The notes under the pieces were generated by a model. That model was not told where the DNA came from and did no database searches. It worked only from the letters and a program-made list of their open reading frames with translations. From Clostridiales bacterium (lineage in GTDB: Bacteria > Bacillota > Clostridia > UBA1381), in contig JAQXTR010000045.1 in assembly GCA_029219585.1 (NCBI GenBank), positions 1 through 40,873 on the forward strand: 40,873 bases of DNA, written 5' to 3'. Made by a program: the position numbers and the translations under genes. Positions 1 to 28,410 of the stretch are shown piece by piece (within the stretch, counting starts at the first letter, position 1; every line of letters begins with the position of its first letter).

Positions 1-84
1 TGTCACATCACGAATATATTTTGAAACAGTCGCATCCGATTTTTCATCGGAAATGAGATAATTTTTAAATTCGTCTATATTCAT
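1..84 (-). CDS. Tyrosine recombinase/phage-type integrase, N-terminal 28 residues (runs off the window)
   Basis: The start is an ATG at 84 with a GGAGG ribosome binding site at 93-97. The visible 28 codons begin MNIDEFKNYL and end with the helix DATVSKYIRDVT. This resembles the opening of the SAM-like core-binding domain of XerC/XerD and phage integrases, where a short helix is followed by S/T-x-x-T-x-x-x-Y-x-x-D-V/L. The catalytic domain lies outside the window, so the R-H-R-Y residues cannot be checked. The gene has its own promoter and sits next to decayed genes, which suits the edge of a mobile or rearranged segment. It could equally be a housekeeping Xer protein. Confidence 0.62.
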   Translation of the reverse strand, partial: MNIDEFKNYLISDEKSDATVSKYIRDVT

Positions 85-104
85 CAATAAATCCTCCGTA
101 AATT

Positions 105-133
105 ATTATATACTTTTATTATTGTTTTGTAAA
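105..133 (-). promoter_or_regulatory. Sigma-A promoter for the recombinase gene
   Basis: Read on the minus strand there is a -35 box TTTACA (128-133), a 17-base spacer and a perfect -10 box TATAAT (105-110). Transcription would begin near 98, giving a very short leader that starts at the GGAGG ribosome binding site. Confidence 0.7.
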
Positions 134-154
134 GATATTAAATTACTCATAATA

Positions 155-178
155 AAACAGCCTCGACCGAGGCTGTTT
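155..178 (-). terminator. Intrinsic terminator hairpin
   Basis: A perfect 11-bp inverted repeat (arm AAACAGCCTCG, 2-base centre) occupies 155-178. On the minus strand it is followed by TTATTATG, a short U-rich tract. It would end transcription entering from the decayed region and insulate the recombinase promoter just downstream. The arms also end in T residues on the plus strand, so bidirectional action is possible. Confidence 0.65.
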
Positions 179-859: not shown

Positions 860-994
860 TAAATATATGAATATGTATTTCACCTTTGTACATATCCATT
901 TTATTTCTCCAATTCTACACATGCAGGATAATGATTCCCGTCTCTTGTATCGTCTCATACATCTACACCGACCTTTTAGCAGATTTCTCATCAC

Positions 995-1070
995 AGAATA
1001 CACGGTTTGGAGAGGGAAAGAGAAACATCCAAAAACAGCTATAAAGCTAAGGGGAATTACCGTATATTCT
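995..1070 (-). ncRNA. Putative structured RNA/repeat element, copy 1
   Basis: This 76-base block shares sequence and fold with 18451-18530. On the minus strand the ends AGAATATACGGT and ACCGTGTATTCT form a 12-bp closing stem with one G-U pair. On the plus strand that pair would be a C-A mismatch, which favours the minus strand as the transcribed one. Inside is a 4-bp hairpin AGCT-loop-AGCT and a conserved pyrimidine-rich strand containing TTTGGATGTTTCTC and TCCCTCTCC. It lies between the GH38 remnant and the ROK/manA remnants. I do not recognise it as a known riboswitch class. A small non-autonomous repeat is the main alternative. Confidence 0.5.
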
Positions 1071-1136
1071 GAAATGAAAAATCTTCTCTGCTTACTCATT
1101 GCGTCATATTTTTATCCCGTCACAATTTCAAATATG

Positions 1137-1759
1137 TTATACTTCTATTAAAATGGTTACAATTTTAAAATTACATATATCAAGCTGCACTGTGCTTCCT
1201 TTTCCCATTTCCTCAACAGAGGTTTCAAGCATATCGCACAGGAATATTTTTTTCGCTTCAAATCCCAGCGTTAAAACCGGCTTTGTTTTTTATTCCATGC
1301 GTCGTACATTCTTACGATGATACCATTGCTCGATTCAGCCTGCTTTATTGTTTCGATTATAATATTTTCGCAGTATCAGGATAAAAGACTGTAGCTTGAC
1401 GGGAGTATTCCCTTGCCGTTTATCTCAATAGCCTCAAGAGGTCTGTTTGGCAGATATGCCCCTTGTATTGTGCTGCCCTGTTTAAAGCCGCTCATATGAG
1501 GATAAAGTGAATATATAAACGGATGATTGCCGATATCCGCATTTTTATCCGGATAGGTTCCGCTTTTTATAAGAGTAAGCGAAATTTTGTTTTCAAGGAC
1601 GCTGTATCCGTATTTACAGTCGTTAAGCAGACTCATACCGTAGTCATCTTCGGAAAGGTCGCCCCATTTCTGAGCGCACACTTCAAATTTTGATATGTCC
1701 AATGATGTGTTTGCGCTGTTTCTGCGTTCAACATTATCCTCTTATGATTGTAAATTGTA
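1137..1759 (-). pseudogene. Decayed GH38 alpha-mannosidase (C-terminal remnant)
   Basis: The translation contains DNVERRNSANTSLDISKFEV, then CAQKWGDLSEDDYGMSLLND and TLIKSGTYPDKNADIGNHPF. These match the conserved C-terminal beta-domain of bacterial GH38 alpha-mannosidases (VERPTHxNTSWDxAxFEVCAxKWxDLSExxYG, then LLNDCKYG). The tail continues as CENIIIETIKQA, a frameshift near 1270-1290, and LCDMLETSVEEM to a TAA at 1137-1139. In-frame stops lie at 1742-1744 (TAA) and 1376-1378 (TGA). The N-terminal catalytic domain is gone. The intact enzyme would have released mannose from alpha-mannosides. With the ROK-like tail and second manA downstream, it points to a lost hydrolytic mannose pathway. Confidence 0.85.
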
Positions 1760-10050: not shown

Positions 10051-13000
10051 TTAATTTTCGTAAGGTGCCGGGAATGTCCAAATACCTTCTGCGGTTGACC
10101 ACACCCAAAGCTCACCGGTAATAGGATGAACTACCAGTGATTCAACACTTGTTCCTGCACTGGGGCCATCCTTCACTATTGATGATTTTGCGCCTGCCGC
10201 AGTTAATGTCTGAAATGATTTTCCACCATCACATGAACGTTGAACTGCCGCTTCATGCCTTATAGTATCATAGGCGCCCGTATATAGAATTTCGGGATAT
10301 CTTGGGTCTAACGCAATAGTATGAAAGAATTTAGCACCGGTAGCATCTAACCCGTTCGCGTTTTTTCCAATATTCATACTTTCATTTTTATCAACCTTAA
10401 TAATAACCGCTCCGGTATTATCATTTCCTGCAACATAATATAAAATGTCGTTTATTCCATCATACTCAACATCCCATATATGTATACCCGATCCTAACTT
10501 ATATCCGGTAGCTTGATCATACAGTATTCTTTGATCGTCTGCCAAAGCTTCGGCAAACGGATACCATGTTCTTCCGTTGTCATAGGAGCACACTATATAC
10601 TCCGCCCATCGGTAAGCACTATCTTTCCACTTTTTCACTACACCCCACAGCTCCTTGTTGTGATAGTAGTTAACAGCAACCACATTATTGCAGCCCCAAT
10701 CAGTTATTTCTTCCCAGCTTTGACCTTTATCATAGCTTATATATTCACCCGCAATAACAGTATGATTGTTTCTCGGCGACACCCAGTAGGATCTTGCTCG
10801 TCTTGCAAATCCCGTTTTAATCGGCAGCTCTTCATGTAATGTAAAAGTATTTCCGCCATCGGTGCTTATACCGATAAATCCGCCATCCGACCATGCTTTG
10901 GACATTGATGAAATAAACGTTGTTTCATCTACAGCAACAGAACCGTATGAACATCCAAAGCCGGAACCGTCTGCAGCTCGTATTGGTGTCCATGTATATC
11001 CCATATCCTTGCTTATCATACCAAGCAAATCCTGCGCTCCGATAAACAAAAGATTTGTATTGTATGGATTGAAATTAAATCTTCCCCCCGGTGGTGTTCC
11101 ACAATATCCGTTTGCGTCCCAAACAAAGGTCTTTCCTCCATTACTGCTGGAGGTTATCCAGTCACCGCCTAATGACCATACCTTGTTTTCGTCTGTCGGA
11201 TGCCATGCAAATGGGTGCTGTCTGTTATGATTAAAGAAAAAGTCCTTTGAGTTATCATACTCACATTCATTCCATGTTTTTCCGCCGTCTTTACTGTAAT
11301 AACGCCTGTTGTTATAATTAATATAGTCACGGCTGTCCACCAGCATATGATTTGGATTTGCCGGACTTACCGCTAAGTCTCTTGTTATATTTCTAACATC
11401 GGTTAAATTTGTGCGGTACGGGAATCCCGAACCTCCCGATGCTCCATTACCTATAAATTCAAAGGTTCGTCCACTGTCGGTTGAAACAAGGACACCTTGA
11501 CTGTTATTTATATATACATTATTGGGATATGTATCTATAACATCCAGACCATAAATGGGCTCATCTGAATATATGTGTTCAAAGGTTACTCCTCCGTCAG
11601 TACTTCTAAAAAATCCACGTTCATTTCCTACATATACCGTACCGTCATTTGGATTTACCTCAACAACGCTGTCTGACATATCAGCATTCACCAAAAACCA
11701 ACTCTTGCCTCCGTCCGTTGTTTTAAATAAACCGCCTACTTTATCTGTTTTTGGCTGTATCCATTCCTGGTCGTAGCCTTCATTGCTCGCAACCAACTTA
11801 TACAAATTTGACCAATATGCAACCTTGCTGCCTCCGGTTACATCGTCCTTACTTGATTTATCCCACGCAAGCTGCTTTCGAGTGTCCCTTTGTCCGTTAA
11901 ATATATATGAATATACCTGTTTCCATGAATGTCCCATATCTTCTGACAAATATATTCCGCACACAGAAGAATCCGAGAGCGAACCAATAGCAAGAACGCG
12001 ATTCTTATTGTTGGGATCAATTTTTATATCAACACATCCTGCAGCCAAAAATCCGCTTGTGCTTCTATGCCATGACTGTCCGCCGTCAGTTGATCGTACC
12101 ATACCTCCTATATCAACTCCGGCAAACAAAAGCGAGCCATCAACCGAATCGACCTCAATTGCCTGCATCCACTGTCCGCCTTCGCCTCCTGATACTCCCA
12201 TATCCCGAAGTTCCTGTGACACTCCCGGAATCTGTTTCCACACATTCCCGGCTTGATTATATGTATCGAATGTAACATACGGATTTTTGCTTGTCCATTC
12301 CTGACCATCCGTTTTTTCGTATTCATCACCTGATATGCCCCTGTAATCAGCAGCTGTTGCAAAAGTATATGAGGGTTCACCATTAATAGCCGCACCTTCC
12401 TTTGAAAATACCTTATTACTAAAACTAATCTTATATATCTTTCCTGCATCTAACTTGTCGCTATACATCACTACATGCACAAGCTTTGAGTTTACAGCAT
12501 CGACAAAAGCATGTTGAACAAGACCGGATTCTGCCTCATTGTTTACTAAAATCATATCACGATTTATATTTCCTACATCCGAATCAAACTGAAAGCTTAT
12601 CACAGGAACCTCTCCTGTCTGCACTGCCTTGTATCCTTGCGCAAGATATGCACTTGTAAGATTCATTTTAGGAAGTCCTTCTTCACAAACACGGCTTTTC
12701 ACAACAATATTGGCCGCTGTATCCGGCATTGAAAAGCAGTATACTCCGTCTGTTTGAGCCAAGCTGTCATTATTTACCGAAACACTTTCTATCTCATATC
12801 CTTTTTTAGTCTTAACATTAAGATAAATGAGGTTTCCTGCCAATCCAAATCCATCTCCTAATTCGCCATTGCCTGAGATAGCCACACTTGTACTATCAGG
12901 AATATCCATGGATATGGGTTTATAATTTGCAGACTCTACCGAAGCCATATTTCCATATAGTTCAACTTCGGGAATATTAATACCACCTAACCATGGTTTT

Positions 13001-16000
13001 ATATCTCTTATTGCTATTCTGAAGTATCTTGCTGAAGTAGGTATATCAAGCGGAAACAAATAATATGTTTGCTTTCCTCCCGTTGAATTCCATAAAATTT
13101 CAGGTCGTATTTCTGTACGAATACAGCCTTTAAGGCTCGGCGAATCATACACTTTCTTCCACGAATTATTTTCACCCGTATCACTTGCATAGATTTCCAG
13201 ACCTTCAGGCCATGGAATTACGGGTTTATTCAAATACATTGCCGGACCAAATGTATAAAAAGTGCCATCATACATAGCAGTAGCAAACTCATAATTAAGC
13301 TTAATGCTGTCTACTTCAACACTCGAAGTTGTTTCCACAGTCATAAGTGAAATATAATCACTGCCGATATTTCCGTTTATATCATAAATCGCTTTGCCGT
13401 TGTAATCTCCCATTGAGGCAACGGTAAGGTAATTCCCATCAACAGCTTCATCCGCCGCAATCGGTGTATCGGATGCAGATGATGCTATTGTAAAACTCTC
13501 TGCAGGAAGCTTTGCCATTCCCGCAACAGGAGAATAAACTCCTCTGAATTTTGCAATAGGCATTCCTAACTCTTCAAGACCTTCGGCAATGCCTGCCGCA
13601 ATCCATTTTGCCCCCTCTTCTGTAAAATGGAATGTATCGCCGTTTTGTCCTATAAAATACCCAAGCTCTGTTATTCCGCTAAATCCGATATTCGCCATTA
13701 AATCAAGACATTCCTTGTTGAAATCAATCAGGGGAATATCTCTTTCCTTTGCGATTTCACGGAATACATCCGGAAATCCCATCAGTTTAGATTCTACCAC
13801 ATAGTGAATACCATCTGCCGCCTTTTCATCAGTTGCCGCATCATATGTATCAGGCGGTGTAATTAAAACAGGGATTGCACCCTTTTGTCTTGCCATGGAA
13901 ACAAACTGATTAATATAACACTTAAAATCCTCCTTAGTTCCGTAATTAGGATCATTTGTTCCCAGCTGAATTAAAACATAATCACCTTTTTGCAGCTTGT
14001 TTGCAAGCTGTCCTATTCTATCCTCGCGGCTTGTAAGAAATTCAAATGCTGACATACCGCTTCTTGCCAAAGAATTATCAATCGTTACATTACTTAAAAA
14101 TTCTTCTCTAATCACCTGCCCCCAGCCGGTTATACCATAATAACTATCCTGATAAGCTTTGTCATACGTCTGACAAATCGAATCCCCTATTGTTCGGATT
14201 GTGACTCTTGCATCATCTTCCAACACATCAAGTGATTCCTCATGCATCGCAAGCGGTGTAACTGTATCATTTGATAACACGAATAATTTAAGCTTGTCAG
14301 CATCTCCGACTTCTAAATTTAATTTAACCTTGTTGCTTGTAATAGGAGCAATTTTTACCTTTGCGAGCACTTCATTCTTGTAAAGAGCCGCATAAAGCTT
14401 TGCCCCTTGAGTCATTTCATTGATGTCTATATTAACCGCATTTACCTCATAGGCTTTTTCAAGACCGTAAACACTGTTGCCATTTTCATCAACCAAACCT
14501 ATACTCAATATATCATACGGCTCTCGCATAGCTACCTTCAAATCCATGGAGGCTGCTGCAATTCGATCTCCAACCTGCACCGTTGCAGTAAGATTATCGG
14601 TTACAGTGCCAAAACCAACAGGAATTTCCTCTGTAAGCCTTCCGTATTCGTTGATATAACTTCCATTATAAGTAAGCTCTATGCCATCATAAATTGTGGA
14701 GCTAAACTTTAAATCACAGTCAACAACATCAAGTCTTTGATACTTCAACTCAATGCTGTTTTTAATTGCTTCAACCTCAATATCAGGATTTACACAAACA
14801 ACATCAATATCGTCAATGAGCATTTCTGATGTTCCGCTGATTTTTAAGTCTGCCAAACCTGTGCTTGATGCCTTGACATAGGCTGCCTTATTCTCCCATT
14901 TATTTCTGATAACAGTATCTTTAAATTGAATCTCGTCATCACCCAGGCAAAAGGAAATGTTTGAGTCCGTGTTCTGTGCAGCAGCTTTAAATGATACTCT
15001 ATAATACTCATTTTCAGTCAATGATACAGGATAAGTAATTGTCTGTCCCTCAGGAAGTCTTAGCACAGATGAATTTCTGTACTTTCTTCCGTATAAAATT
15101 TCACCATCTGACAGCCCAAAACGGCTTTTTGCCGTCTCACTTGTCATATTCATGGTACCTACGGGAATCAATCTATCATAATATCCTGTATTTTCTTCCC
15201 ATTTAAGCTTTGGCCCGTTTTGTGACGGTACAAAATCCACACACCATTCATAACCCAGTCCATTCTCCGGCATTTCAATATATGCCCAGTAAAATCCTTC
15301 CGGCCATTCCTTACTTGAACCGGATTGATAACAATTATTTACTTCAACCCAATCGGCAGTTCTTCCTATCGTTGTGTCTGAGTAACAATTTTCTATTATA
15401 CCAACATTGGTACCCTTTCCAAGTATACCGCCATCGTAATTTACAATATCCCACGATCCCTCTTTCAATTCTTCCTTAAAACCTTGTGAATAACAGCTTC
15501 TTATTTCAACCCCTTCTCCGTATACCTCACCAATCAATCCGCCGCCGCAGCCAAACTCACCTTGATTGTATCCATCGGTTCCTCTGACAAACGAGGTTGT
15601 GAAAACAATGTTTTTTGCAAAACAACGCTCAATGTCTGCATTTTCACTGATCTTAGCCACAATGCCGCCGCATATGCTGTTATACGAATCCCACCATGTG
15701 TCTATGTGAAAGCTGATATTTTCAACACCTAAATCATGTATATATGCATTACCGGATACATAAGAAAACAGAGCGTATGTGTTGTAATCATTACCGCTGA
15801 CCTCAAACTTATAATTTTTAATAATATGACCATTGCCGTCAAAATCGCCCTTAAAAGCTGTTGACTCCGTTGCACCGATGTGTGTTGTCCACTCCGTGCC
15901 GCCCAAATCTATATCCGTCATAAGCTTAAAATACATATCGGATGTATTCGACATGTCAGAAATTTTCTTTAATCCGTTTATGTCTTTAATCAAATACGGA

Positions 16001-16995
16001 TTATCAAAACATCCGTTGCCTTCCATCCCCGGTATCTCATTAAATTTTTCCCAGCTAAGGATCGGGTAACCGTCATTTATGGCATTACTGTCAGCTTCAA
16101 ACGCATTACCCAGCTCTTCAGCTTTTAATTTAAGCTCATCAAGAGTTGTCTGTGTTCCGTAATATTTCATACCATCGGCACCATAAGCATACGGCCACGG
16201 GGCTTCTGTGCCATAGTATGTGTTTGTAACATTGACATTATCTCCAATATAGCCCACTGAAGTATATGAATCCGTATAGCAGTTTCTTATATCAGAAGTT
16301 CTAAGCATCTTACCTGCAAGACCGCCTTTAATCTGCCAATACATATCCGAGCCTAAGGTCATGCCAACTGAATAACAGCTGTCCATAGTCCCGTAAAGAA
16401 AGCCTGCAATGCCGCCGACCGCGTTATATCCGCGATCTGCACTTGTTGCTCCCTCAGCAAAACCCATCCAAAAATTTTTGACAAAACATCCGGATATTTT
16501 AGAGCCTTCAAGAGCTATGCCGGTAATTGCACCGGCAGCTGTCCAATTCCAGGATAAATCATTCGAAATAATTACATCTTTAACACCAAGATTTTTAACA
16601 GTACTGCCGTTGCCTATTGCGCCGAACAAGCCTTTGGTAGTTTTTCCGTCTGCATTTGATATTTTATAATTTGATATAATATGCCCATCACCGTCAAACA
16701 CGCCCATAAAAGGATTTGACTCCAATACAACAGCACCATCATTATCGTCATATTTAAAATGGCCGATAGGTGTCCATGCTTCTCCGCCAAGATCAATGTC
16801 TGCCGTGAGTTTATAATATTTACCTGCACCGCTGTCCGTACCGCTGTTTACTGTATCTGCGAGAGCTTTAAGCTCGTCTGAATTTTCAATTAATACGGTT
16901 TCAAACGACATTCCCGCACCGCCTGCCGCCGAAATCGCAGGCATAAAACCTGCAATTATACTGAGTGTAAGTATAATACCTATTATCTTTTTCAT
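10051..16995 (-). CDS. Secreted 2314-residue GLUG / CE12-like esterase / GH74-like double-propeller protein
   Basis: A Sec signal peptide ends near residue 23 (ISAAG). Residues about 30-620 hold GLUG-type repeats with NCYS/SCYS motifs. At 625-760 there is a jelly-roll-like module, then a short module LYAALYKNEVL near 880-920. Residues about 930-1140 form an SGNH domain of the rhamnogalacturonan-acetylesterase (CE12) type: IGDSICQTYD near 937, QLGTNDPN near 1013, and DTFHFTEEGA near 1119. Residues 1165-1346 resemble a discoidin-like carbohydrate-binding module, followed by Ig-like modules to about 1547. The last 750 residues contain 12 Asp-box motifs (STDGGQSW type), the size of the tandem seven-bladed propellers of GH74. 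D1628 (in VDIGG) and D1989 (in AQDLLG) sit at equivalent points of the two halves. There is no SLH domain or LPXTG motif, so it is probably released or loosely held. Confidence 0.85.
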   Translation of the reverse strand: MKKIIGIILTLSIIAGFMPAISAAGGAGMSFETVLIENSDELKALADTVNSGTDSGAGKYYKLTADIDLGGEAWTPIGHFKYDDNDGAVVLESNPFMGVFDGDGHIISNYKISNADGKTTKGLFGAIGNGSTVKNLGVKDVIISNDLSWNWTAAGAITGIALEGSKISGCFVKNFWMGFAEGATSADRGYNAVGGIAGFLYGTMDSCYSVGMTLGSDMYWQIKGGLAGKMLRTSDIRNCYTDSYTSVGYIGDNVNVTNTYYGTEAPWPYAYGADGMKYYGTQTTLDELKLKAEELGNAFEADSNAINDGYPILSWEKFNEIPGMEGNGCFDNPYLIKDINGLKKISDMSNTSDMYFKLMTDIDLGGTEWTTHIGATESTAFKGDFDGNGHIIKNYKFEVSGNDYNTYALFSYVSGNAYIHDLGVENISFHIDTWWDSYNSICGGIVAKISENADIERCFAKNIVFTTSFVRGTDGYNQGEFGCGGGLIGEVYGEGVEIRSCYSQGFKEELKEGSWDIVNYDGGILGKGTNVGIIENCYSDTTIGRTADWVEVNNCYQSGSSKEWPEGFYWAYIEMPENGLGYEWCVDFVPSQNGPKLKWEENTGYYDRLIPVGTMNMTSETAKSRFGLSDGEILYGRKYRNSSVLRLPEGQTITYPVSLTENEYYRVSFKAAAQNTDSNISFCLGDDEIQFKDTVIRNKWENKAAYVKASSTGLADLKISGTSEMLIDDIDVVCVNPDIEVEAIKNSIELKYQRLDVVDCDLKFSSTIYDGIELTYNGSYINEYGRLTEEIPVGFGTVTDNLTATVQVGDRIAAASMDLKVAMREPYDILSIGLVDENGNSVYGLEKAYEVNAVNIDINEMTQGAKLYAALYKNEVLAKVKIAPITSNKVKLNLEVGDADKLKLFVLSNDTVTPLAMHEESLDVLEDDARVTIRTIGDSICQTYDKAYQDSYYGITGWGQVIREEFLSNVTIDNSLARSGMSAFEFLTSREDRIGQLANKLQKGDYVLIQLGTNDPNYGTKEDFKCYINQFVSMARQKGAIPVLITPPDTYDAATDEKAADGIHYVVESKLMGFPDVFREIAKERDIPLIDFNKECLDLMANIGFSGITELGYFIGQNGDTFHFTEEGAKWIAAGIAEGLEELGMPIAKFRGVYSPVAGMAKLPAESFTIASSASDTPIAADEAVDGNYLTVASMGDYNGKAIYDINGNIGSDYISLMTVETTSSVEVDSIKLNYEFATAMYDGTFYTFGPAMYLNKPVIPWPEGLEIYASDTGENNSWKKVYDSPSLKGCIRTEIRPEILWNSTGGKQTYYLFPLDIPTSARYFRIAIRDIKPWLGGINIPEVELYGNMASVESANYKPISMDIPDSTSVAISGNGELGDGFGLAGNLIYLNVKTKKGYEIESVSVNNDSLAQTDGVYCFSMPDTAANIVVKSRVCEEGLPKMNLTSAYLAQGYKAVQTGEVPVISFQFDSDVGNINRDMILVNNEAESGLVQHAFVDAVNSKLVHVVMYSDKLDAGKIYKISFSNKVFSKEGAAINGEPSYTFATAADYRGISGDEYEKTDGQEWTSKNPYVTFDTYNQAGNVWKQIPGVSQELRDMGVSGGEGGQWMQAIEVDSVDGSLLFAGVDIGGMVRSTDGGQSWHRSTSGFLAAGCVDIKIDPNNKNRVLAIGSLSDSSVCGIYLSEDMGHSWKQVYSYIFNGQRDTRKQLAWDKSSKDDVTGGSKVAYWSNLYKLVASNEGYDQEWIQPKTDKVGGLFKTTDGGKSWFLVNADMSDSVVEVNPNDGTVYVGNERGFFRSTDGGVTFEHIYSDEPIYGLDVIDTYPNNVYINNSQGVLVSTDSGRTFEFIGNGASGGSGFPYRTNLTDVRNITRDLAVSPANPNHMLVDSRDYINYNNRRYYSKDGGKTWNECEYDNSKDFFFNHNRQHPFAWHPTDENKVWSLGGDWITSSSNGGKTFVWDANGYCGTPPGGRFNFNPYNTNLLFIGAQDLLGMISKDMGYTWTPIRAADGSGFGCSYGSVAVDETTFISSMSKAWSDGGFIGISTDGGNTFTLHEELPIKTGFARRARSYWVSPRNNHTVIAGEYISYDKGQSWEEITDWGCNNVVAVNYYHNKELWGVVKKWKDSAYRWAEYIVCSYDNGRTWYPFAEALADDQRILYDQATGYKLGSGIHIWDVEYDGINDILYYVAGNDNTGAVIIKVDKNESMNIGKNANGLDATGAKFFHTIALDPRYPEILYTGAYDTIRHEAAVQRSCDGGKSFQTLTAAGAKSSIVKDGPSAGTSVESLVVHPITGELWVWSTAEGIWTFPAPYEN

Positions 16996-17063: not shown

Positions 17064-18380
17064 TTATAAGCTAATCTCGACTATTTTTCCGGACTTTCTT
17101 GATTCTTCAGCCTTAAACACAACCATATGGCTCTTGGTAGAATCCATAATATCTGTGCAGGAAATGGACTTTTCTCCGCCTTCAAGTGCATTGCAGAAAT
17201 CAGCTATCAGCCTGATATCTCCACCACCGTGTGCACCCTGCTCACCGGCTGAACCGCCCAGCATATCAATGCTGAATTCCTGTTCGATATAACCAGATTC
17301 CTCCTTAGGCTCAATTGTTCGCAAAACAAATTTACCCGAATCGAATTCACCTTTAATTTCACCCTTGGTACCAATAATATGAATATTTCTTTCTGCTTTT
17401 GAAGCCCCTCCGACAAGATTAAACACACCTGTTGCGCCATTTCGGAAATTAATAATTACAGATTGATGGTCAACATTTCCGTCACGCTCAAAATCCCATA
17501 CACATTTTCCGTAATCATTATATGTATTAAGAGCTTCAATCAATATGGCTTTTTGTTCCTCCGTATATGGTTTGTAAAGCTCCCATTTATATCCCTTTGC
17601 CTCTAAGGGCTGAGTTACATACTGATCCCATGCTTGCGGTTCTACATAATTTGTCTGTGCTGAAAATGCGCATTTATCATTAAGAGGACAATCAAGCATG
17701 CATCTTGTCCCTGCATTTTCAGGCTTATTTTTAGTTGTAAACTGAAAGTCTCCGCCATAGCTTGCCACTGATACCGGCTCAATATCGGAAAGCATCCACA
17801 TCATAAGATCAATGTCATGACAGCACTTCGCTAAAAGCATCGGCGCAAAGCACACCTTTTCCGAACGCCATTTGCCCCTTACATACGAAACTGCCATATG
17901 ATGATAACTTACATGTTCATCCTGCTGAATGCTTATAATTCTGCCGATATCACCGTTCATAAGATGCTTTTTAATTTCGGAATAAAAAGGTGTGTATCTA
18001 AGAACGTGGCATATATATACCTTTCTGCCGGTTTCCGTAACAACATCAACTAACTCCTGCATTTCCGTCTGATTCACTGCAAAAGGTTTTTCCAAAAGCA
18101 TATCATAACCTTTTCTTAAAATCGGAATAGATGTCTGCACATGAAGATGATCCATTGTTCCGTTAATAACCGCATCTGCAAACTTATCTCTCCTGACAAA
18201 ATCTTCAACACTTGCAAAACAATTTTCTTTAGGTACATTGTATCGTTCTCTCATAATATCATTTCTGATTTTATCGGGATCAACTATACCAACTATCTTC
18301 ATTTTGTCAGGGCACAGCAATGCGTATTTTGAATACTCATTCGCTCTGTCTCCTGCACCTACCAATACTACCTTTACCAT
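17064..18380 (-). CDS. Gfo/Idh/MocA-family oxidoreductase
   Basis: This 438-residue NAD(P)-dependent enzyme has an N-terminal Rossmann fold beginning VVLVGAGDRANEY, the EKPF motif at 97-100 and the conserved H188 in CCHDIDLM, which is typically catalytic. A cysteine cluster C-x3-C-x5-C follows (CMLDCPLNDKC), as in a subgroup of these enzymes. It probably oxidises or reduces a sugar or cyclitol hydroxyl in the cytosol. Some relatives (GH109-like) use NAD for glycoside cleavage, which I cannot exclude. The ATG at 18380 has a strong AAGGAGG site. The long 5' leader contains the structured element at 18451-18530 and an inverted repeat at 18543-18583, so this gene and the giant gene behind it may have separate control. 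Confidence 0.87.
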   Translation of the reverse strand: MVKVVLVGAGDRANEYSKYALLCPDKMKIVGIVDPDKIRNDIMRERYNVPKENCFASVEDFVRRDKFADAVINGTMDHLHVQTSIPILRKGYDMLLEKPFAVNQTEMQELVDVVTETGRKVYICHVLRYTPFYSEIKKHLMNGDIGRIISIQQDEHVSYHHMAVSYVRGKWRSEKVCFAPMLLAKCCHDIDLMMWMLSDIEPVSVASYGGDFQFTTKNKPENAGTRCMLDCPLNDKCAFSAQTNYVEPQAWDQYVTQPLEAKGYKWELYKPYTEEQKAILIEALNTYNDYGKCVWDFERDGNVDHQSVIINFRNGATGVFNLVGGASKAERNIHIIGTKGEIKGEFDSGKFVLRTIEPKEESGYIEQEFSIDMLGGSAGEQGAHGGGDIRLIADFCNALEGGEKSISCTDIMDSTKSHMVVFKAEESRKSGKIVEISL

Positions 18381-18450
18381 AGTTAAATCCTCCTTAATTT
18401 ATAGATTCGGTTCTGTTTTTATATTCATATACATAATAATCTCTCATCAT

Positions 18451-18530
18451 AGAATACACGGTATGGAGAGGGAGAGAGAAATATCCAAAATGATATCGGC
18501 TGTATAGCCATGGGGGAAACCGTGTATTCT
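18451..18530 (-). ncRNA. Putative structured RNA/repeat element, copy 2 (leader of the oxidoreductase gene)
   Basis: The 80-base element is closed by a perfect 12-bp stem (AGAATACACGGT with ACCGTGTATTCT). It has an inner hairpin GGCT-loop-AGCC, where copy 1 has AGCT-loop-AGCT; the outer pair changes from A-U to G-C on both sides, a compensatory change. Conserved between copies are TTTTGGAT, TTTCTCT and TCCCTCTCC in the 3' half and a C-run after the 5' stem arm. It lies in the 261-base gap between the GH130 gene and the oxidoreductase, ending 70 bases before the latter's ATG. A cis-regulatory leader is one reading. A small mobile repeat is the other; no target-site duplication is visible. Confidence 0.55.
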
Positions 18531-18542
18531 AAGATCAAACAT

Positions 18543-18583
18543 CATGTGTAAGATATGAAAATTAATAACATATCTTACACATG
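18543..18583. terminator. 15-bp perfect inverted repeat: terminator or operator
   Basis: Arms CATGTGTAAGATATG and CATATCTTACACATG are separated by 11 bases. On the plus strand the hairpin is followed by TATTTTT, a good U-tract. On the minus strand, the direction of all genes, the following sequence ATGTTTGATC is a poor one. A perfect TTGACA -35 box lies at 18592-18597 on the minus strand, so the repeat covers the expected -10 and start region. It could therefore be an operator for a dimeric repressor rather than a terminator. It sits between the GH130 stop and the structured element. Confidence 0.5.
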
Positions 18584-18641: not shown

Positions 18642-19820
18642 TTATACCTCTTTATAGTAATCCTTGTTCGCATCAATCAGATTACATATATTTTCAACAC
18701 TTGTATGGGTTGTAAGCCCGTCCTCCGGAGTATTCATACAATAGTCAACCATTTTATCTACTGTTGTCGAAATAACATGAAGCCTTGTATCAGCCGATGC
18801 ATAATAAACAAACATGTTGCCGTCAGGATCGACGATTGCGCCGTTTGAAAAAACACAGCCCGAAACATCACCGTCACGCTCAGCACCTTTAGGCGCAAGG
18901 AAATATCCGCCCGGCTGATATATAACCTTAGTCGGATCATCAAGAGCGGTCATAAAACAATAAAGAACATATCTTAGACCTGTTGCATGATTTCTTACAC
19001 CATGTGCCACATGCAGCCAACCCTCTTTTGTCTTTATAGGCGTTGCACCGGCTCCGTTTTTAACTTCCTTTACGGTATGGTAAACTCTTGCATCTATTAT
19101 TTTTTCGTCCTTTATTTCAGCATTTTCCATACTGTCTACAAATGCCGCACCTATTCCTCCGCCGCTGCCGACATCAATAAATCCATCCGACGGTCTTGTA
19201 TAAAGCAAATACTTTCCGTCAACAAATTCGGGATGAAGCGTAACATTTCTCTGCTGATTGGGTGATATCAAATCAGGCATTCTTTCCCATGTGTCAAAAT
19301 CCTTTGTTCTTACAATACCGCACTTTGCAACAGCGGAGGATGTATCATCAACAGAAGTATCTTTTCTCTCGCTGCAGAACAGTCCGTAAATCCATCCGTC
19401 CTCATGTTGAGTAAGACGCATATCATATACATTGGTATCTATTTCCTCAACCTTTGGCAGTACAATAGGTCTTTCACGAAATTTAAAACCGTCTACACCG
19501 TTGTCACTTTCCGCAACCGCAAAATACGACTTTCTGTCGTTACCCTCAACACGAGCAACAAGAATGTATTTACCGTCAAGATATATCGCACCTGAATTCA
19601 TTATGGCATTTACGCGGATACGCTCCAAAAACATCGGATTTCTCTCATAAGAATAATCAAATCTCCAGTTAAGCGGAATATCCTCACGCATAAGTACAGG
19701 GTACTTATAGCGATTGAATACACCGTTTATACTGAATTTTGCCGTATTTTTTCTTGATGTAACCATCTTGTGGTTTTCTGTTACTTCTTTAATCCTATTC
19801 TCAAAATATTCTCTGCTCAT
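18642..19820 (-). CDS. GH130_1 4-O-beta-D-mannosyl-D-glucose phosphorylase
   Basis: This 392-residue cytosolic protein matches the five-bladed propeller phosphorylases of GH130 subfamily 1. It shows NAIMNSGAIYLDGKYILVAR, VEGNDRKSYFAVAES, DTNVYDMRLTQHEDGWIYG, QQRNVTLHPEFVDGKY and DGFIDVGSGGGIG. D133 in VYDMRLT aligns with the general-acid Asp (D131 in the Bacteroides fragilis enzyme). The reaction is mannosyl-beta-1,4-glucose plus phosphate giving mannose 1-phosphate and glucose, which saves one ATP. The products feed the phosphomutase and ManA genes downstream. The 2-epimerase that usually supplies mannosyl-glucose from mannobiose is not in the window. The ATG at 19820 has a GGAG site and follows the GH37 stop by 32 bases. 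Confidence 0.93.
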   Translation of the reverse strand: MSREYFENRIKEVTENHKMVTSRKNTAKFSINGVFNRYKYPVLMREDIPLNWRFDYSYERNPMFLERIRVNAIMNSGAIYLDGKYILVARVEGNDRKSYFAVAESDNGVDGFKFRERPIVLPKVEEIDTNVYDMRLTQHEDGWIYGLFCSERKDTSVDDTSSAVAKCGIVRTKDFDTWERMPDLISPNQQRNVTLHPEFVDGKYLLYTRPSDGFIDVGSGGGIGAAFVDSMENAEIKDEKIIDARVYHTVKEVKNGAGATPIKTKEGWLHVAHGVRNHATGLRYVLYCFMTALDDPTKVIYQPGGYFLAPKGAERDGDVSGCVFSNGAIVDPDGNMFVYYASADTRLHVISTTVDKMVDYCMNTPEDGLTTHTSVENICNLIDANKDYYKEV

Positions 19821-21151: not shown

Positions 21152-24100
21152 TTATTTTAAAATAACAACCGACTGCGGCATATCATCCTGATATAATATA
21201 ATCACTTCTGAGCAAGAACTTCCTGAATTCTTATAATCAAGAATATCTCCGCTTGATGCCTTTTCTATATTCCGCTTCTTCTTATGCTCCGAATAAACAT
21301 AAACCTTCGCCTTCGAAATATCTGTCGTTTCAGCACTCAAAAGCGACTCTGAATTTCCCGGATCGTACTGTTGCGGAACAAGCCTCAAAACATTGTCATC
21401 CTTATCATACACCTTTGCAAACATCATTCTATCCCAGTCACCGAATGAACCGTATGGATTACTGCTGCTCATTGCGCGTTCTGAAACATCAAGGATTACA
21501 TTTGCACTGCCAATCATATAATTATACGCATCCCGTCTGCAACTGATATAATCGCCTACATCTATATTCTGCACTAAACTTTCATCATCGGTGTAAAGCT
21601 TTGTTCCGTCAATCAAATTAACCGTAAATGTAAGAGTACCGTCAATTATTTCTGAATCCTTATCCAGAACAAGACCTTTCTTATATTCACCCACATGATT
21701 TGTCATATATCTGTCCTCCGGAAGATATACGACAACAACATCAACAGCTATTGCATTACCCCGTGTCTGATATGCCTCAATAGTTTCTGCACCTAAGTCT
21801 CCCAAATCCCAAACATTGTCCGAAACATAGAATTTTGCATCGTCATCTGTCTTTGCGTTTAATGGCACATAGATTAGCTTTGCATCCTCTGTAAGCTGTA
21901 CCTTTCCGTTAAAACTACGCGCTGTCGGGCTGAAGCTTATCGTACTTAACGGGCTTGACGGATTCGGAGGAAGAATTGATGAATATACAACTCTGAATCC
22001 GTCAGCATTGTCATTGTCCTTTGGCTGCACTGTACGATAGTCCTGACAGTGTGGAAGTTTATTATATGCGGTATCAATGAACGATACTTCACCTTCAAGA
22101 TTTGTATCATATAATATCAGCTGAGAAACAACCGCGCCGGTTTCATTCATAAGACGCTGCATAGCTATTTCCGCTGTTTTTGCAGTGCTAGTATCAATTT
22201 TGATATTTTCAGCCGCCTTGAGCTTTACCATTTGTCCGTCCATGTTAAATATCTTGACCTGCATTTCTGTGCCGGTGTCACCCTCGTAACATACAGCATT
22301 CACCAAATAGCCCACATTATTCAATGAAGCTCCCGAACGGAACGCAGCGACATTACCCAGATAATCAAAGAAGAATGTTCCTGTCATACCTGTGTTTACA
22401 TTCTGACTTTCAAAAAATCCTTTTACCGTTTTATAGCTCGTTCTTACATTTGAACCGTAAAGCTCATCACCGATAAGGATGGTTGGCTCATCACCCTTTG
22501 AAACTCCGCTGACCGTACCCGTAAGGCTTTCCGAGGCAATATACATTTTTACAATTTCTCCGTCCTTGCTTCTTGCAACCGACAGAACATTGTACGGCTT
22601 TATGTCGTTTATTTTGTAATCTGCCCCGTCCTTGTCCTTAATTGAAAGAACTGTACAATCCGATATATTAACGGAAATATTGCTCAATCTGTCGTATATG
22701 ATTTCCTTATCATAATCTACGCTGCCTACATGCATAGTTTCCAAATCGGTGATAATGACAACATTATAGCCCTGACCGTTGTCTATCAATCTGATACTGC
22801 CGTATGCGGGCACATATGTCTCCTCGGTATTTGTATATTCCCCGAGATATTTTCCGTTATAGATAATACTTATTTCGTTTTCCAAACGATAGTGTGTCTG
22901 TTTATTACCTTCGTCACTCCAGACATGGTATGTGTTATTATCAAAGCTGACATCACTGTTCACAGTGGAAATATCTACAATTTTATTTCTGTTCCCTATA
23001 TCATACACATACACGAGCTTATTATCATCGCCGTCTATCTCATCATAATAATATTTTACCTTACATCCTATATACTGTGACAAATCCACATCGGACGAAA
23101 AATTGACACCGCCGATACATACTTGATTTTCACCCATGTTTGCAGACGAATACAAATATGTTTCCGGAGTTCCTTCAATTATACCTTCAGCTTTAACATA
23201 GCCGAAATATTCCTCTAAAAATGTATTTGATTTTGTCAGGCTTGGATTTCCGTTCTTTGTTCTGCTAAAATCAACGGTAAGAACATCCTCTTCAAGTATA
23301 TTATCAAGGATTTTGGCAAGGGCACCGTATGTAACCACAGCTCCGCCCTTAAGCCCGGTATTCTTTAATAATCCCATCTCCGCGCCAATCTGGTAGTATC
23401 CCTTGTTATTGCCGCCTTGATTTTCAGCTATTTTGGACCAACCCATAATGCTGAGTATTACCTTTATTACCTGCTCGGTCATTACACTGTCGTCAGGACC
23501 GAATGTCGTATCATCATAGCCGTTCATTATGCCTAATTCCGAGATTGCCGCAACAATACCTGATGAGGCCTCGTCCACATCCGTAAAGCCTACAGCCGCC
23601 TTGGCATCAGCAGCGTAATCGTATTCTATTATGTTAAGAATAACCCTTGCCAGATCAAGACGAGTTAACTCGGCATTTTCCGAAATTCCGTTCGGAATTA
23701 CACCGAATGCCTTCATCTTGTCAATGCTTTGATTCCCCATTCTTACCATATTTGAGGCGGAGGAGCTTGAGATTTCAGCCTTTGGAGGATCCTCATCGTG
23801 TCCGTCCTCAAAGAAATACCAGTCGTCTATATATACTGTTACGCCGGCATTCAATACCGCAATCCACTGCTTGACCTCGCTGAGGTCTGCTTTATTATCC
23901 ACAGTCCAGCTATATTCGAGATCCGTCCATTGTCCCGCCTTAAGCTCCACGTCGGGACCGGCATGATAATTATTTTGATCTCCGGGGATATTATAAGTGA
24001 GAACCAATCTCGCTTTTGTTGCCGAGTCGGCCTTTATGCGTGCTCTTGCAACGTATGTATATCCTGTTTTAACATAAACACGCTGTCTTACAGATGCCTC

Positions 24101-24634
24101 ATCCCAGCCGGGAGTAAACTGAAGCACATTGTTTCCGTTATCATTTATTATAGCCGAGTTTGACCATGCCTCAGATTCAAGACCATATATGTTGTTGGCG
24201 TCATCCATCCCGGGATTTGTCATCTGGCGGTATGAAGGTATATTTTTTGAGATTGTAAATGTAATACTTTTCGCCTCAAGAGATTTTCCTGATACCGACT
24301 TAATTCCGGATTTTAGCGTTACTGTATACTTTGTACCCGGTATAATGCTGTATCTGTTGAAATACAATGTTGCAGTCTTTTCCCCTGTCGCTATAATTGC
24401 GGCATAGCCGTTTCCTGACACTGATAAATTCGACATCTTGAGTGTTGACGCATCTACTGCTTCTGAAAATGTCATATCAAGCTGAAGATTTATCGGAGAG
24501 ATATCTCTTGCCCCGTCTTCAATGCTTAAGGAAACAATGGACATCTTCGCCTCTTCCTCAGCCATTGCCTGCGGCAGCTGAATTATCAGCATGCACATTG
24601 TAACTATCCAAGCTAAAACTTTTTTTAATTTCAT
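21152..24634 (-). CDS. Secreted SLH-domain protein with Ig-like and carbohydrate-binding-like modules and a large unknown C-terminus
   Basis: 1160 residues. A signal peptide ends near AMAEEE. Residues about 28-130 form a bacterial Ig-like (Big_5) module (SIEDGARDISPINLQLDMTF). Residues 135-285 resemble a CBM4/9-type jelly-roll (TNPGMDD..., ending VYIDDWYFFED). About 295-455 contain SLH repeats (VGFTDVDEASSGIVAAISEL, IMNGYDDTTFGPDD) that would bind secondary cell-wall polymer. The remaining 700 residues match nothing I recognise; they are beta-rich, with repeated short strands such as VYVYDIGNRNKIVDIS. The gene starts 5 bases after the stop of the previous SLH protein gene, with a GGAAGG site, so they are co-expressed. 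The likely job is wall-anchored glycan binding. Confidence 0.82.
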   Translation of the reverse strand: MKLKKVLAWIVTMCMLIIQLPQAMAEEEAKMSIVSLSIEDGARDISPINLQLDMTFSEAVDASTLKMSNLSVSGNGYAAIIATGEKTATLYFNRYSIIPGTKYTVTLKSGIKSVSGKSLEAKSITFTISKNIPSYRQMTNPGMDDANNIYGLESEAWSNSAIINDNGNNVLQFTPGWDEASVRQRVYVKTGYTYVARARIKADSATKARLVLTYNIPGDQNNYHAGPDVELKAGQWTDLEYSWTVDNKADLSEVKQWIAVLNAGVTVYIDDWYFFEDGHDEDPPKAEISSSSASNMVRMGNQSIDKMKAFGVIPNGISENAELTRLDLARVILNIIEYDYAADAKAAVGFTDVDEASSGIVAAISELGIMNGYDDTTFGPDDSVMTEQVIKVILSIMGWSKIAENQGGNNKGYYQIGAEMGLLKNTGLKGGAVVTYGALAKILDNILEEDVLTVDFSRTKNGNPSLTKSNTFLEEYFGYVKAEGIIEGTPETYLYSSANMGENQVCIGGVNFSSDVDLSQYIGCKVKYYYDEIDGDDNKLVYVYDIGNRNKIVDISTVNSDVSFDNNTYHVWSDEGNKQTHYRLENEISIIYNGKYLGEYTNTEETYVPAYGSIRLIDNGQGYNVVIITDLETMHVGSVDYDKEIIYDRLSNISVNISDCTVLSIKDKDGADYKINDIKPYNVLSVARSKDGEIVKMYIASESLTGTVSGVSKGDEPTILIGDELYGSNVRTSYKTVKGFFESQNVNTGMTGTFFFDYLGNVAAFRSGASLNNVGYLVNAVCYEGDTGTEMQVKIFNMDGQMVKLKAAENIKIDTSTAKTAEIAMQRLMNETGAVVSQLILYDTNLEGEVSFIDTAYNKLPHCQDYRTVQPKDNDNADGFRVVYSSILPPNPSSPLSTISFSPTARSFNGKVQLTEDAKLIYVPLNAKTDDDAKFYVSDNVWDLGDLGAETIEAYQTRGNAIAVDVVVVYLPEDRYMTNHVGEYKKGLVLDKDSEIIDGTLTFTVNLIDGTKLYTDDESLVQNIDVGDYISCRRDAYNYMIGSANVILDVSERAMSSSNPYGSFGDWDRMMFAKVYDKDDNVLRLVPQQYDPGNSESLLSAETTDISKAKVYVYSEHKKKRNIEKASSGDILDYKNSGSSCSEVIILYQDDMPQSVVILK

Positions 24635-24639
24635 AATCG

Positions 24640-27600
24640 CTATCCTTCCTGCTTCTGAGTTTCAAGAATTGACAAAAACCTGTCAAATACAACTGCCGCC
24701 TCTGCTCTGGTTGCAGTATCCTTAGGAGCAAATCTTCCGTCCTCACGTCCGTTTATTATACCGAGGTAGCTGAGATGACCGACAGCCTCCACAGCATAAT
24801 CCGAAATTGTCCTATAATCATTAAAGCCAAGTGATACGTTATTCGCTTTAATTCCCGACTGTTCTGCCATTCTGTATAAGATAACAGCCATATCCTGTCG
24901 TGTTACAGGCAGTTCTCCGCCGAATACTGTGTCTGACATACCGTTAATTATTCCCAATTCATAGGCACTTGCCACATAACTGTAGCTCCAATGACTTCTC
25001 GAAACATCATCGAATGAAACATCAGCCGCCGTATTCAATCCATCCATTGCAAGAACCGCAATTTTTGCAAATTCAGCGCGGGTAAGGGTTTCTGCCGGAG
25101 CAAATTTCCCATCCTCGCGTCCGTTTATAATTCCCTTATGATAGAGTTTAAGAATACTGTTCTCTGCCCATACCACTGTGTCGAGGTCGTTAAATATAAC
25201 CTTTTCTTCAACATTATTTTCTTTGGTATTGTTCTTTGCAGTATCTGCGTTAAAATTCACAGCACCGCTGCTCGAGCCTGCGCCTTTTGAAATGCCGGAG
25301 GATGAACCACCGCCGCCACCGCCGCCGGAGCCGCTGCTTGATGAATTTACTTCATTTATGGCTTTCTTAAGTGCCGATTTTATAGCCGAAAGACTTGTCG
25401 GTGATATTCCCTGCAATTTACCGTATATTCTTGACGATGCACTGCTTGCCTCCGCTTGTACTAAAAGACTGCTTATATCATTTTCTCCGGTGAAACTGTC
25501 CTTGGTGAGCATAAGAATATTCCTTATTCCTGCCGGACCGCCAACGTAGCACATCGACTTGCATATAATTTCGGTTGTCAATATATCTTTAATATCATCA
25601 ACGTCAGACTCTTTGTTGTCCATTGCCGACTTTGCAATTGCAGCTCTGTTCGTATCGTCAAGAACAGATACATACACTTCCCTTACTCCGCTGTCAAGAA
25701 TTGAGCCTTCAAGCAACAGTATTTCTTTTACGGTATTCATATCAGATGTACTGCCTATTATAAGCTTAAACGCACATGAGTTTATACTTCTGCATACATC
25801 ATCTATAGAATCCAGCTTTGATTCCTGCGCAAAAACGCTGTAAAATTCATCTGTTTTCTCAGATATATTATCTAATACATAGTTGTACAATGCGCACTTT
25901 CTTCCCAATTCATCATATATACCCGAAATTGCCGCTTTAACGGCATCCTTGTCACCGAGTGCGTTATTAATCTCGCTTAACAGTGACGCATCGCTTACAG
26001 CCTCAAAACTGAAGGTATATGCTTCTGTATTATACCCATCTATTGTCATAACGGTTTGGGGAACGGTTACGGTATATGTTTCACCGTTGACGTATTTATC
26101 ATTATCTATCTCGATAATACATCTCTTAAGATTTGATGTGTAAACCTTTGGCTTTGCACCCAAATCCGGAGTAACCTTAATGCCTGATACCGAATTCGGC
26201 ATTATAGGCTCGTCAAAATCAATATATATCGGAAGCTGACTCCGCTTTACCGATACTGCACCGTTTTGCGGAGAAGACGACACGACTGCCGCATTCTTGC
26301 CGTGTGCTGTGACCGTTTTAAACGTTATGTTACTGCCGGTCATTGCTTTGCCGGCCATGCTCATAACCCCGCTGAAGTCAAGCGTATACTGTGTGCCGGG
26401 CAAAAGCTCTCCAAACTGTATATGACAGTTTGTAAGATCATTATAATCAAAGCTTACATTCACCGGCTGTGTTGTGCTGTCCTGTGCTTTAAGAGTTATT
26501 CCGCTTAATAATGAATCCTGTCTTATGGGCACATTAAATCTTACATTGGTTTCAAACGCAATCGGTGATATTCCCTCATCGCCGTCACTAAGCCCCGAAT
26601 AGATAATTCCCAAATCATCGGCCGAAGCTTTTGAAATATCATATATACTCCAATTATCAACTTCAATGCCTATTGTATCGTCCGAGCCATCCACCGAACC
26701 TACTGCACGAATAGCAATCTCCTGAGGCACGGCACCTTCACCTACATTAAATACACATGAAAGGAATGTCCATTTGTTTGCTTCTACCACCGTACTCACC
26801 GTTGTCCAACCGGAATTCAGTCCGGGCGGAGCATAACAGCTTAATGCTATTTTTTGCTCTGCATCGGACTTAACCCATGCAGACATATAATATGTACCCG
26901 GGGCTGTGATTGAATCACGCGCCACAACAGGCTCATCTCCCCATTGGGGATCAAGTCTGAGAACATTGTTTACAGTGCCTGTCAGCTCTGTATCCTGTGC
27001 AAATGAAATATGACTTGCCGCCTGCGAGTTATCGGGATAGAATACAAATATATTAGTTAAATCCTCCATATCGCCATTCTTTACCAAGTTCTTCAATGAA
27101 TTATCCGGTAACTCCGAAACTGTGGCAAAAGAAACGCTTTCATCCGAAGCTATGCAGTAGCCGGCCGATGTTTTTATTGAATCTCTGAATGTCACGTTGT
27201 ATGAAGTGGCAAGATTCAATGCTTTAAACTTAATGCTGATAGTATCGGATCCGGATAAATCTGTATTCTCAATTTCAAACTCAGCCTCCGGCTCAACAAT
27301 TATACCGTCATTGTCAAGTGTTGAAAAGTCAATGTACTTATCAAACTTCACAGATAATCTGCTGTTATAAATATTAACTCCGTCACTTCCGTCCTCCGGG
27401 GATGATGAAATTATTTGGGCATCTCCCGGAAGTAATCTCTCGTCAACCTCCCACGACAAAACAGGGTATCCGTTATTTATCACACTATTAGGATCACTTA
27501 TAAAATCTCCGCCTAAACTTTCAGCAATGTTTTTAAGCTCTTCCTTCGAAATCTGTGTTCCGTAGTAAATTAAATTCTCATCACGTCCGTCATTCCACGG

Positions 27601-28389: not shown

Positions 28390-28410
28390 ACCCAAATCAG
28401 CCTTTCATTA

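Follow-up and report, generated by a model that had tools for sequence, protein, structure and literature searches.

Among the genes of one contig of a Clostridiales bacterium lie two short, look-alike blocks of DNA that appear to fold, and the question they raise is whether they belong to a functional RNA or to a repeat that has merely spread. A first-pass annotation of the window, by which is meant the whole 40,873-nt stretch of DNA analysed here, had left the choice between a cis-regulatory RNA of sugar genes and a small repeat that folds.

The two copies in the window

The two blocks, about 17 kb apart, were recovered by a repeat search as a 52-nt direct repeat of 90% identity accompanied by inverted repeats (families D12, I3 and I4). 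The blocks are thus real, but the limits first drawn for them (995-1070 and 18451-18530) were too narrow, and the full elements, both on the minus strand, have the extents given in Table 1.

Table 1. Positions in the window of the two element copies, their parts and the neighbouring features
Feature	Position	Strand	Basis and remarks
XerA-like tyrosine recombinase, first 28 codons, cut by contig end	1..84	-	best matches are the element-following G005 recombinases; about 0.9 kb downstream of copy 1
Copy 1, full element	977..1085	-	RNA 5' end at 1085; covariance model R1 120.5 bits, R3 99.3 bits; fold z -9.4 (for 980-1085)
Copy 1, 3' arm of long stem P1	981..1006	-	fold; pairs counted on alignments A2 and A5
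Copy 1, CU-rich 16-nt loop of hairpin P3	1012..1027 (P3, 1007-1032)	-	fold; CU motif count
Copy 1, inner hairpin P2 (AGCU..AGCU)	1037..1048	-	fold; A-U/G-C double change among own-genome copies
Copy 1, 5' arm of P1	1059..1084	-	fold; pairs counted on alignments A2 and A5
ORF with GH38-type gene remnant, upstream of copy 1	1379..1636	-	Pfam PF07748 over 31 residues
Gfo/Idh/MocA oxidoreductase gene, start 53 nt after copy 2	17064..18380	-	Pfam PF01408
Copy 2, full element	18433..18545	-	RNA 5' end at 18545; covariance model R1 108.6 bits; fold z -5.3 (for 18440-18540)
Copy 2, 3' arm of P1 core	18450..18462	-	fold
Copy 2, CU-rich stretch	18468..18483	-	fold; seven-copy consensus
Copy 2, inner hairpin P2 (GGCU..AGCC)	18497..18510	-	fold; own-genome copy comparison
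Copy 2, 5' arm of P1 core	18519..18531	-	fold
Distinct 14-bp perfect inverted repeat next to the RNA 5' end of copy 2	18544..18582	.	sequence
GH130 glycoside phosphorylase gene that copy 2 follows, ends 97 nt before copy 2	18642..19820	-	Pfam PF04041

In RNA orientation, the seven-copy consensus has P1, a long stem, and within it a C-rich joint, an inner hairpin P2 (AGCU..AGCU or GGCU..AGCC) and a hairpin P3 with a CU-rich 16-nt loop. Copy 1 folds as this consensus, with a 13-bp core stem followed by one mismatch and 12 more pairs; in copy 2 the core stem is extended by three to a few pairs. The minimum-energy RNA fold of copy 2 has P1 and P2 formed and P3 replaced by a different small hairpin, with the CU-rich stretch unpaired beside it, the same stretch being the P3 loop in the seven-copy consensus and in a fold with DNA parameters. 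The minus strand gives the better RNA fold for both copies, at -38.9 kcal/mol (z -9.4) for copy 1 and -30.8 (z -5.3) for copy 2, against -27.2 (z -4.5) and -27.1 (z -3.1) on the plus strand, and for neither copy did any of 200 shuffled sequences fold as well. With DNA parameters the values for copy 1 are -17.3 on the minus and -14.9 on the plus strand, and the two strands of copy 2 are equal (-14.0/-14.1).

The compensatory change from A-U to G-C that had been noticed in the inner hairpin is real and recurrent, with five A-U and two G-C pairs among the first seven copies, and the outermost core pair is also double-changed, from C-G to U-A in copy 2. Gene decay around copy 1, another early observation, is supported by the C-terminal remnant of a GH38 gene on its 5' side and by a broken frame on its 3' side, the latter resembling (by eye) intact genes in contig C14. 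Strong hairpins without a U-tract, like the inverted repeat beside copy 2, precede several other copies (by eye, at L009, L083, L090, L071 and L078), and come after the gene's stop codon where a stop is in reach. Elsewhere on the minus strand of the window (10051-16995, 21152-32367 and 38189-40819) are genes for very long proteins of 876-2314 aa that share DNA repeats and are probably large surface proteins.

Size and distribution of the family

The first-pass annotation had proposed that covariance models be built and related Clostridia searched; once run, this search yielded further copies, and these, far from being scattered without gene context or covariation, show both. The element, about 70-155 nt long across the family, was found at seven places in its own genome by a pattern search and at eight by the covariance model built from those seven (R1). 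The own-genome copies are about 81-94% alike in the blastn pairs shown, and for six of the eight the nearest contig end is no more than 1.9 kb away. R1 found matches in 8 of 61 genomes, a wider model of 22 copies (R2) in 12 of 70 genomes of the family, and the widest, of 32 copies (R3), in 17 of these 70, the own genome being included each time; the 17 are spread patchily over 5 of 17 genera, in draft genomes, and one of the genomes cited below, G014, is a same-genus relative of the window's genome. Beyond the family, R3 was run at E 1e-4 on 25 other genomes of the order and had no match. A strict two-arm pattern run against one genome per species (84,980 species) matched five contigs, all of them from Clostridia MAGs and one from Candidatus Ornithomonoglobus merdipullorum. 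The same pattern had no match in viral contigs, nor did copy 2, as a blastn query, match phage or plasmid records. Searches spanning more than 40 genomes used stricter filters, on draft genomes.

A covarying stem and its folding strand

Covariation was counted on alignment A5, which holds 32 of the 35 listed copies (C54:552, G025:C9 and a truncated copy of G012 are omitted). The further covariation that had been looked for is present, as 96.7% of the cells in the 23 stem pairs are paired and 19 of the 23 pairs show double changes, above both shuffled and slid controls. Cells with double changes number 103, compared with a shuffle mean of 26.8, and none of 500 shuffles reached 103, a contrast that is inflated by the relatedness of the copies; all six slid structures score far lower (34-54% paired), in a comparison that favours the consensus structure, itself derived from copies of the family. 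Compensatory changes beyond controls were also present in an earlier 22-copy alignment. The letters of the outer stem vary widely across the 32 copies and stay paired, so that there is no conserved terminal inverted repeat, and in the GAUUACAGGG-type subgroup (G069:C78, G005:C41, G013:C89 and G008:C19) the core is largely different yet re-paired. Two internal mismatches are kept, a G-G in 23 and a U-U in 20 of the 32 copies.

The same alignment bears on the strand. It had been remarked that the single change in the closing stem is a G-U pair on one strand and a C-A mismatch on the other, and this one-sidedness holds family-wide: the cells comprise 635 Watson-Crick pairs, 76 G-U, 6 A-C and 19 others, and by copy, 27 lean to G-U, none to A-C, and five are ties. 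Since the wobble is so one-sided, it is the gene-sense strand that folds. Covariation and wobble together favour an RNA; that the folded molecule is the corresponding single strand of DNA is less likely. C-to-T mutation linked to transcription might account for some of the wobble, but could not have contributed to the double changes.

The CU-rich loop

The second conserved trait is a pyrimidine tract. The loop contains CUCUC or CUCCC in 46 of 47 copies, a share that is possibly overstated because the covariance models include loop columns and copies lacking the tract may be under-detected; the 47 are drawn from 51 located copies, less four tandem neighbours (G005:C17 twice, G005:C41 and G013:C89). 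The longest pyrimidine run averages 13.3 nt, compared with 7.7 nt in shuffled loops. The loop interior ranges from 16 to 98 nt as trimmed and varies in its pairing and inner hairpins too, and in copy 1 and in G069:C67 the tract forms a 16-nt hairpin loop on hairpins whose letters are quite different. A search of the own genome for sites complementary to the tract 12-mer, with at most one mismatch, revealed no excess, with 19 sites (eight of them the element itself) against 18 for a reversed control pattern. Only one of the 11 sites outside elements lies just before a start codon, at G000:C44:18810-18821 (L264), where it directly precedes a 221-aa ORF.

Neighbouring genes

The nearest upstream ORF is on the element's strand in 30 of the 34 copies that have one, at a median distance of 68 nt and within 50 nt in 12 of the 30; downstream, 26 of 33 rows have a same-strand ORF and the other seven an opposite-strand, thus convergent, one. 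In some operons no more than 20-30 nt separate the end of the element from the following start codon. The nearest-ORF table (35 copies) was drawn up mechanically and its counts kept as computed, including two miscalls, at G008:C78:17134 and G014:C81:2242, where reverse ORFs were taken and an mgtC-type frame or remnant can be seen by eye on the element's strand. The names AlaS, SGNH and mgtC were all assigned by eye.

Carbohydrate enzymes or transporters, as sorted by us from Pfam names, account for 21 of the 30 same-strand upstream ORFs (the four opposite-strand ones were dropped) and for 5 of 27 control genes (p 1.5e-4), and a strict count of enzymes only gives 19 and 2, respectively (p 2e-5). 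The controls are the genes meeting the rule in 27 of 32 regions from carrier genomes, many of them on element-bearing contigs. Upstream sugar genes include those for GH78, GH36, GH3, GH2, GH35, GH38, GH65, GH130 and trehalase-type enzymes, FucI, ROK/NagB, ROK, KduI and mannose-6-P isomerase; also counted were two ABC components taken by context for sugar transport and a HAD protein that looks, by eye, similar to the C61 beta-phosphoglucomutase. Downstream, where Pfam was run on 20 of the 33 rows, all same-strand, the genes are mixed: some loci have GH65, GH3, GH2, GH43 or an FGGY sugar kinase, others housekeeping genes (EF-P by Pfam, AlaS by eye), a transposase (Pfam) or convergent genes. Because the upstream genes are mostly sugar genes and the downstream ones mixed, the element goes with the gene before it, and would usually lie in the 3' UTR of that gene or between genes. 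The early proposal of a cis-regulatory RNA of sugar genes or a folding repeat therefore stands as to the link with sugar genes and the dispersed repeat, but not as to a leading position, as the element usually follows the sugar gene. At L008 (711-893 with 912-1535, and 1949-2122 with 2137-2757) and L011 (4772-5585) there are repeated gene pairs for a secreted protein of about 205 aa and a protein of about 60 aa (beginning MKKY or MKIY); an element follows at both L008 loci, and the two proteins tested had no Pfam match.

Promoters, terminators and free-standing copies

Promoter-like sites are not enriched upstream of the copies overall (4 of 35, against 2.3 expected), and a terminator-like hairpin lies within 120 nt downstream of 7 of 35 copies, compared with 11 of 192 random windows (p 0.01). 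Two copies look like candidate genes for free-standing RNAs. G069:C67, situated between two genes of the other strand, has a perfect TTGACA-17-TATAAT, then the element and then a separate strong hairpin; at G083:C98, TTGAAA-17-TATAAT begins about 60 nt before the element, the stem is extended into a hairpin of -60 kcal/mol that ends in seven T, and another perfect promoter-like site precedes the next gene. As an intrinsic terminator the element fits poorly: among 35 copies viewed by eye a stem with a direct U-tract is clear only in G083:C98 and possible in G007:C65, and most copies are without one.

Shared flanks and recombinases

In many of the copy pairs among the blastn pairs listed, homology stops at the edges of the element. 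Five sets of copies have one flank only in common: the downstream flank in C54:552 and C81 (90% over the 80 nt available), in C61 and G025:C9 (97% over 113 nt, C61 having only 93 nt upstream) and in G004:C188, G008:C78 and G014:C20 (52-74 nt); the upstream flank in C54:552 and G025:C9 (74% over 257 nt); and the upstream genes and the element in G004:C156 and G007:C65. C61 and G025:C9 represent a GH65 locus in two genera (L009/L081), in one of which the beta-phosphoglucomutase gene is largely missing. Other pairs (G005/G013) share both flanks. G013:C89 and G005:C94 (L079/L201, two species) agree at about 83% of positions in the upstream gene; on reaching the 5' arm of the first of two elements, identity rises to 99% (save a 15-nt gap) over a block of about 420 nt that holds both elements and ends about 104 nt after the second, followed by divergence. 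An empty site that could reveal a target-site duplication was sought at two loci, those of copy 2 and of the FucI-EF-P copy, and none usable was found.

The genome G005 has four XerA-like tyrosine recombinases whose starts lie 192-222 nt after the end of an element, the other three being 73-82% identical to the one on C27. None of 31 distinct, less similar recombinase loci has an element within 1 kb upstream (two have less than 1 kb of upstream sequence), and upstream of the next most similar recombinase, on G069:C13 (63%), an element lies at a distance of about 3.2 kb, beyond two intervening genes. A 33-residue recombinase start on G025:C110 (L082), 1.4 kb downstream of a copy, has its best match, like the start at the edge of the window, to the G005 enzymes; the grouping goes by percent identity, and for these fragments by 28-33 residues. 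Window positions 1-165 (minus strand) and the end of G025:C110 are 96% identical over 165 nt across genera, which looks like a recently shared mobile gene. The link within 1 kb comes mainly from four paralogous loci of one genome, G005, and most carrier genomes, as drafts, have no recombinase of more than 60% identity. A general link between the element and any XerA-like recombinase was considered and rejected, as 40 of 70 genomes have such an enzyme (E 1e-20), with and without elements. At three contig ends of G005 (C94, C27 and C17; L201, L202 and L247), an element is followed by a recombinase, a 107-108-aa protein and a phage-type exonuclease, in that order. The exonuclease belongs to PHROG 69 in all three and to Pfam DUF2800 in the one tested, and these loci may be the ends of integrative or multi-copy phage-like elements.

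Relation to known elements

The first-pass annotation had recognised no known riboswitch or ncRNA class, and no Rfam family matches the element. Rfam had no match in the whole window at the gathering threshold; at a loose threshold there were 13 weak matches around copy 2, one of them spanning it, all far below gathering, and two sub-threshold matches on 15 copy loci, neither on an element. A general-term search of mainly open-access literature found no paper that describes the element in its title or the start of its abstract. On this evidence it is apparently a new RNA or repeat family, related in kind to known ones and with an unusual mix of traits.

The attC site is a hairpin with a variable tip at the 3' end of integron cassette genes, with boxes RYYYAAC/GTTRRRY, and integrons recombine the strand opposite to gene-sense. 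The element is likewise a hairpin 3' of genes in the same orientation, with a variable tip, a tyrosine recombinase near some loci and flanks that differ on one side. It is unlike attC in that no such boxes were seen by eye at the stem foot on A5, the other strand is favoured and the recombinase is not IntI: the G069 enzyme, the one protein tested, scores 54.5 bits against the NCBIfam integron integrase TIGR02249, the cut-off being 265.

Stem-loops between carbohydrate-enzyme genes are known from a relative of Clostridium. In the cip-cel cellulosome operon of Ruminiclostridium cellulolyticum, according to the cited parts of the sources, stem-loops act as cleavage signals and stabilise processed transcripts (PMC10311766), and these selective RNA processing and stabilisation (SRPS) stem-loops are the subject of a further paper (PMC4423207). 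By its position (30 of 34 copies behind a same-strand ORF) the element lies where SRPS stem-loops lie, in a 3' UTR or an intercistronic spacer; the cip-cel stem-loops are, however, of two structural types within one operon, as far as the cited part of PMC10311766 goes, whereas here one family with a conserved core and CU loop occurs behind unrelated genes. According to the cited part of PMC4132741, LhrC of Listeria binds through UCCC motifs to a G-rich stretch ahead of the lapB start codon, and a motif of this kind is typical of the sRNAs of low-GC bacteria. LhrC also has several similar copies with CU-rich motifs in loops, but is described there as two stem-loops, one of them a terminator, whereas the element is one long stem, mostly without a promoter of its own and behind sugar genes. 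Among repeats, the nearest known kind in the part of PMC2229807 cited are ERIC, NEMIS and RPE, dispersed intergenic repeats of 105-155 bp that fold when transcribed, and mRNAs co-transcribed with ERIC are reported to change in stability; stem-loop sequence families have also been catalogued (PMC2267715, cited in part). Compared with what PMC2229807 says there of these repeats, the ends of the element covary instead of being conserved, and it is biased in orientation and in gene class.

What the element may do

The dispersed copies, with a covarying fold on the gene-sense strand, a CU tract and a position after sugar genes, suggest, with a probability of about one half, a lineage-restricted family of structured RNAs, known from a few uncultured Clostridia and usually situated in operon spacers and 3' UTRs, which would shield or process the mRNAs of glycan genes while its CU loop is available to a partner; that the element is transcribed, that it stabilises or processes messages and that the loop has a partner are what we infer. 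RNA polymerase would read through the end of the sugar gene into the element, whose long stem would fold at once, block 3' exonucleases and mark a cleavage site, giving the upstream message a stability of its own. The CU-rich tract would be held open in the loop for a partner in trans, either a G-rich mRNA site, for instance a Shine-Dalgarno region, or a pyrimidine-binding protein, and the few copies that seem to possess both a promoter and a terminator would be small RNAs in their own right. The stabilising or processing half of this proposal resembles the cip-cel stem-loops, and the CU-loop half the UCCC motifs of LhrC, as far as the cited parts of PMC10311766 and PMC4132741 describe them. 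Several observations weigh against it. The G-U excess could come in part from C-to-T mutation or from the folding of single-stranded DNA, and for stabilisation alone neither a conserved loop tract nor conserved mid-stem letters would be needed. The sharing of one flank and the recombinase neighbours are not explained by an RNA role, and the lack of an excess of complementary sites, the lack of promoter enrichment and the patchy distribution also count against one.

The loop suggests the foremost of the alternatives, which is nonetheless unlikely: a multicopy family of trans-acting sRNAs like LhrC, in which several near-identical RNAs of about 110 nt, cut out of 3' UTRs or made from their own promoters, jointly repress sugar genes by pairing exposed UCCC/CUCUC motifs with G-rich Shine-Dalgarno regions. 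Eight similar copies in one genome, the near-universal CU tract and two free-standing candidates are what such a family would look like, but LhrC comprises two stem-loops, one of them the terminator, in place of one long stem (in the cited part of PMC4132741), most copies here have no promoter of their own, and complementary sites are not in excess. That the element instead works on DNA, as a site at the 3' ends of cassettes where a XerA-like tyrosine recombinase shuffles glycan genes in the manner of attC, or as the attachment region of an integrative element, seems to us doubtful and ranks next. The one-flank pairs, the jump in identity at the element between G013:C89 and G005:C94, the four G005 recombinases just after elements and those farther downstream (G069:C13 and the start fragments) speak for it. 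The close link, however, comes from one genome with four paralogous loci, most draft carrier genomes lack a recombinase of such similarity, the wobble favours the gene-sense strand where integrons recombine the other, no attC boxes were seen by eye, and the G069 recombinase scores far below the integron-integrase cut-off. Homologous recombination would likewise reassort the flanks of 110-bp repeats, some G005/G013 pairs share both flanks, and an integrative element fits the three G005 loci that run into a phage-type exonuclease as well as a cassette does.

The two roles might be combined in a glycan gene-cassette system, in which the element is both a 3' RNA hairpin and the joining site for a XerA-like recombinase or for an integrative element that carries one; we place this slightly lower again. 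If it were true, gut Clostridia would swap sugar-digesting genes as integrons swap resistance genes, with another hairpin and another recombinase. Just below it, and improbable, comes a non-autonomous mobile repeat (a MITE, or ERIC- or NEMIS-like) that spreads through intergenic DNA, is transcribed along with its neighbours and folds, without serving the host in any specific way. Homology that stops at the element's edges in many listed pairs, the patchy presence and the similar size and folding of ERIC, NEMIS and RPE (in the cited part of PMC2229807) agree with it, against which stand outer ends that vary yet stay paired without a conserved terminal repeat, the bias in orientation to the upstream gene and towards sugar genes, and the lack of a blastn match of copy 2 in phage and plasmid records. 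A riboswitch or attenuator in the 5' UTR of the downstream sugar gene is very improbable. It would account for the 26 of 33 rows with a same-strand downstream ORF, some of them GH65, GH3, GH2, GH43 or FGGY sugar kinase genes, but seven of the 33 face a gene on the opposite strand, others precede EF-P or (by eye) AlaS, and the loop interior varies in length and pairing, unlike a ligand pocket. A 5'-UTR element of sugar genes had been the first guess in this analysis, and was dropped on gene context.

Work on polysaccharide use by gut Clostridia has centred on the enzymes and transcription factors. A dedicated RNA placed after glycan genes would mean that these are also controlled post-transcriptionally, and from its conserved CU loop one can predict a partner to look for. 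If the element were also a site at which cassettes are joined, it would explain the reshuffling of glycan genes in these genomes.
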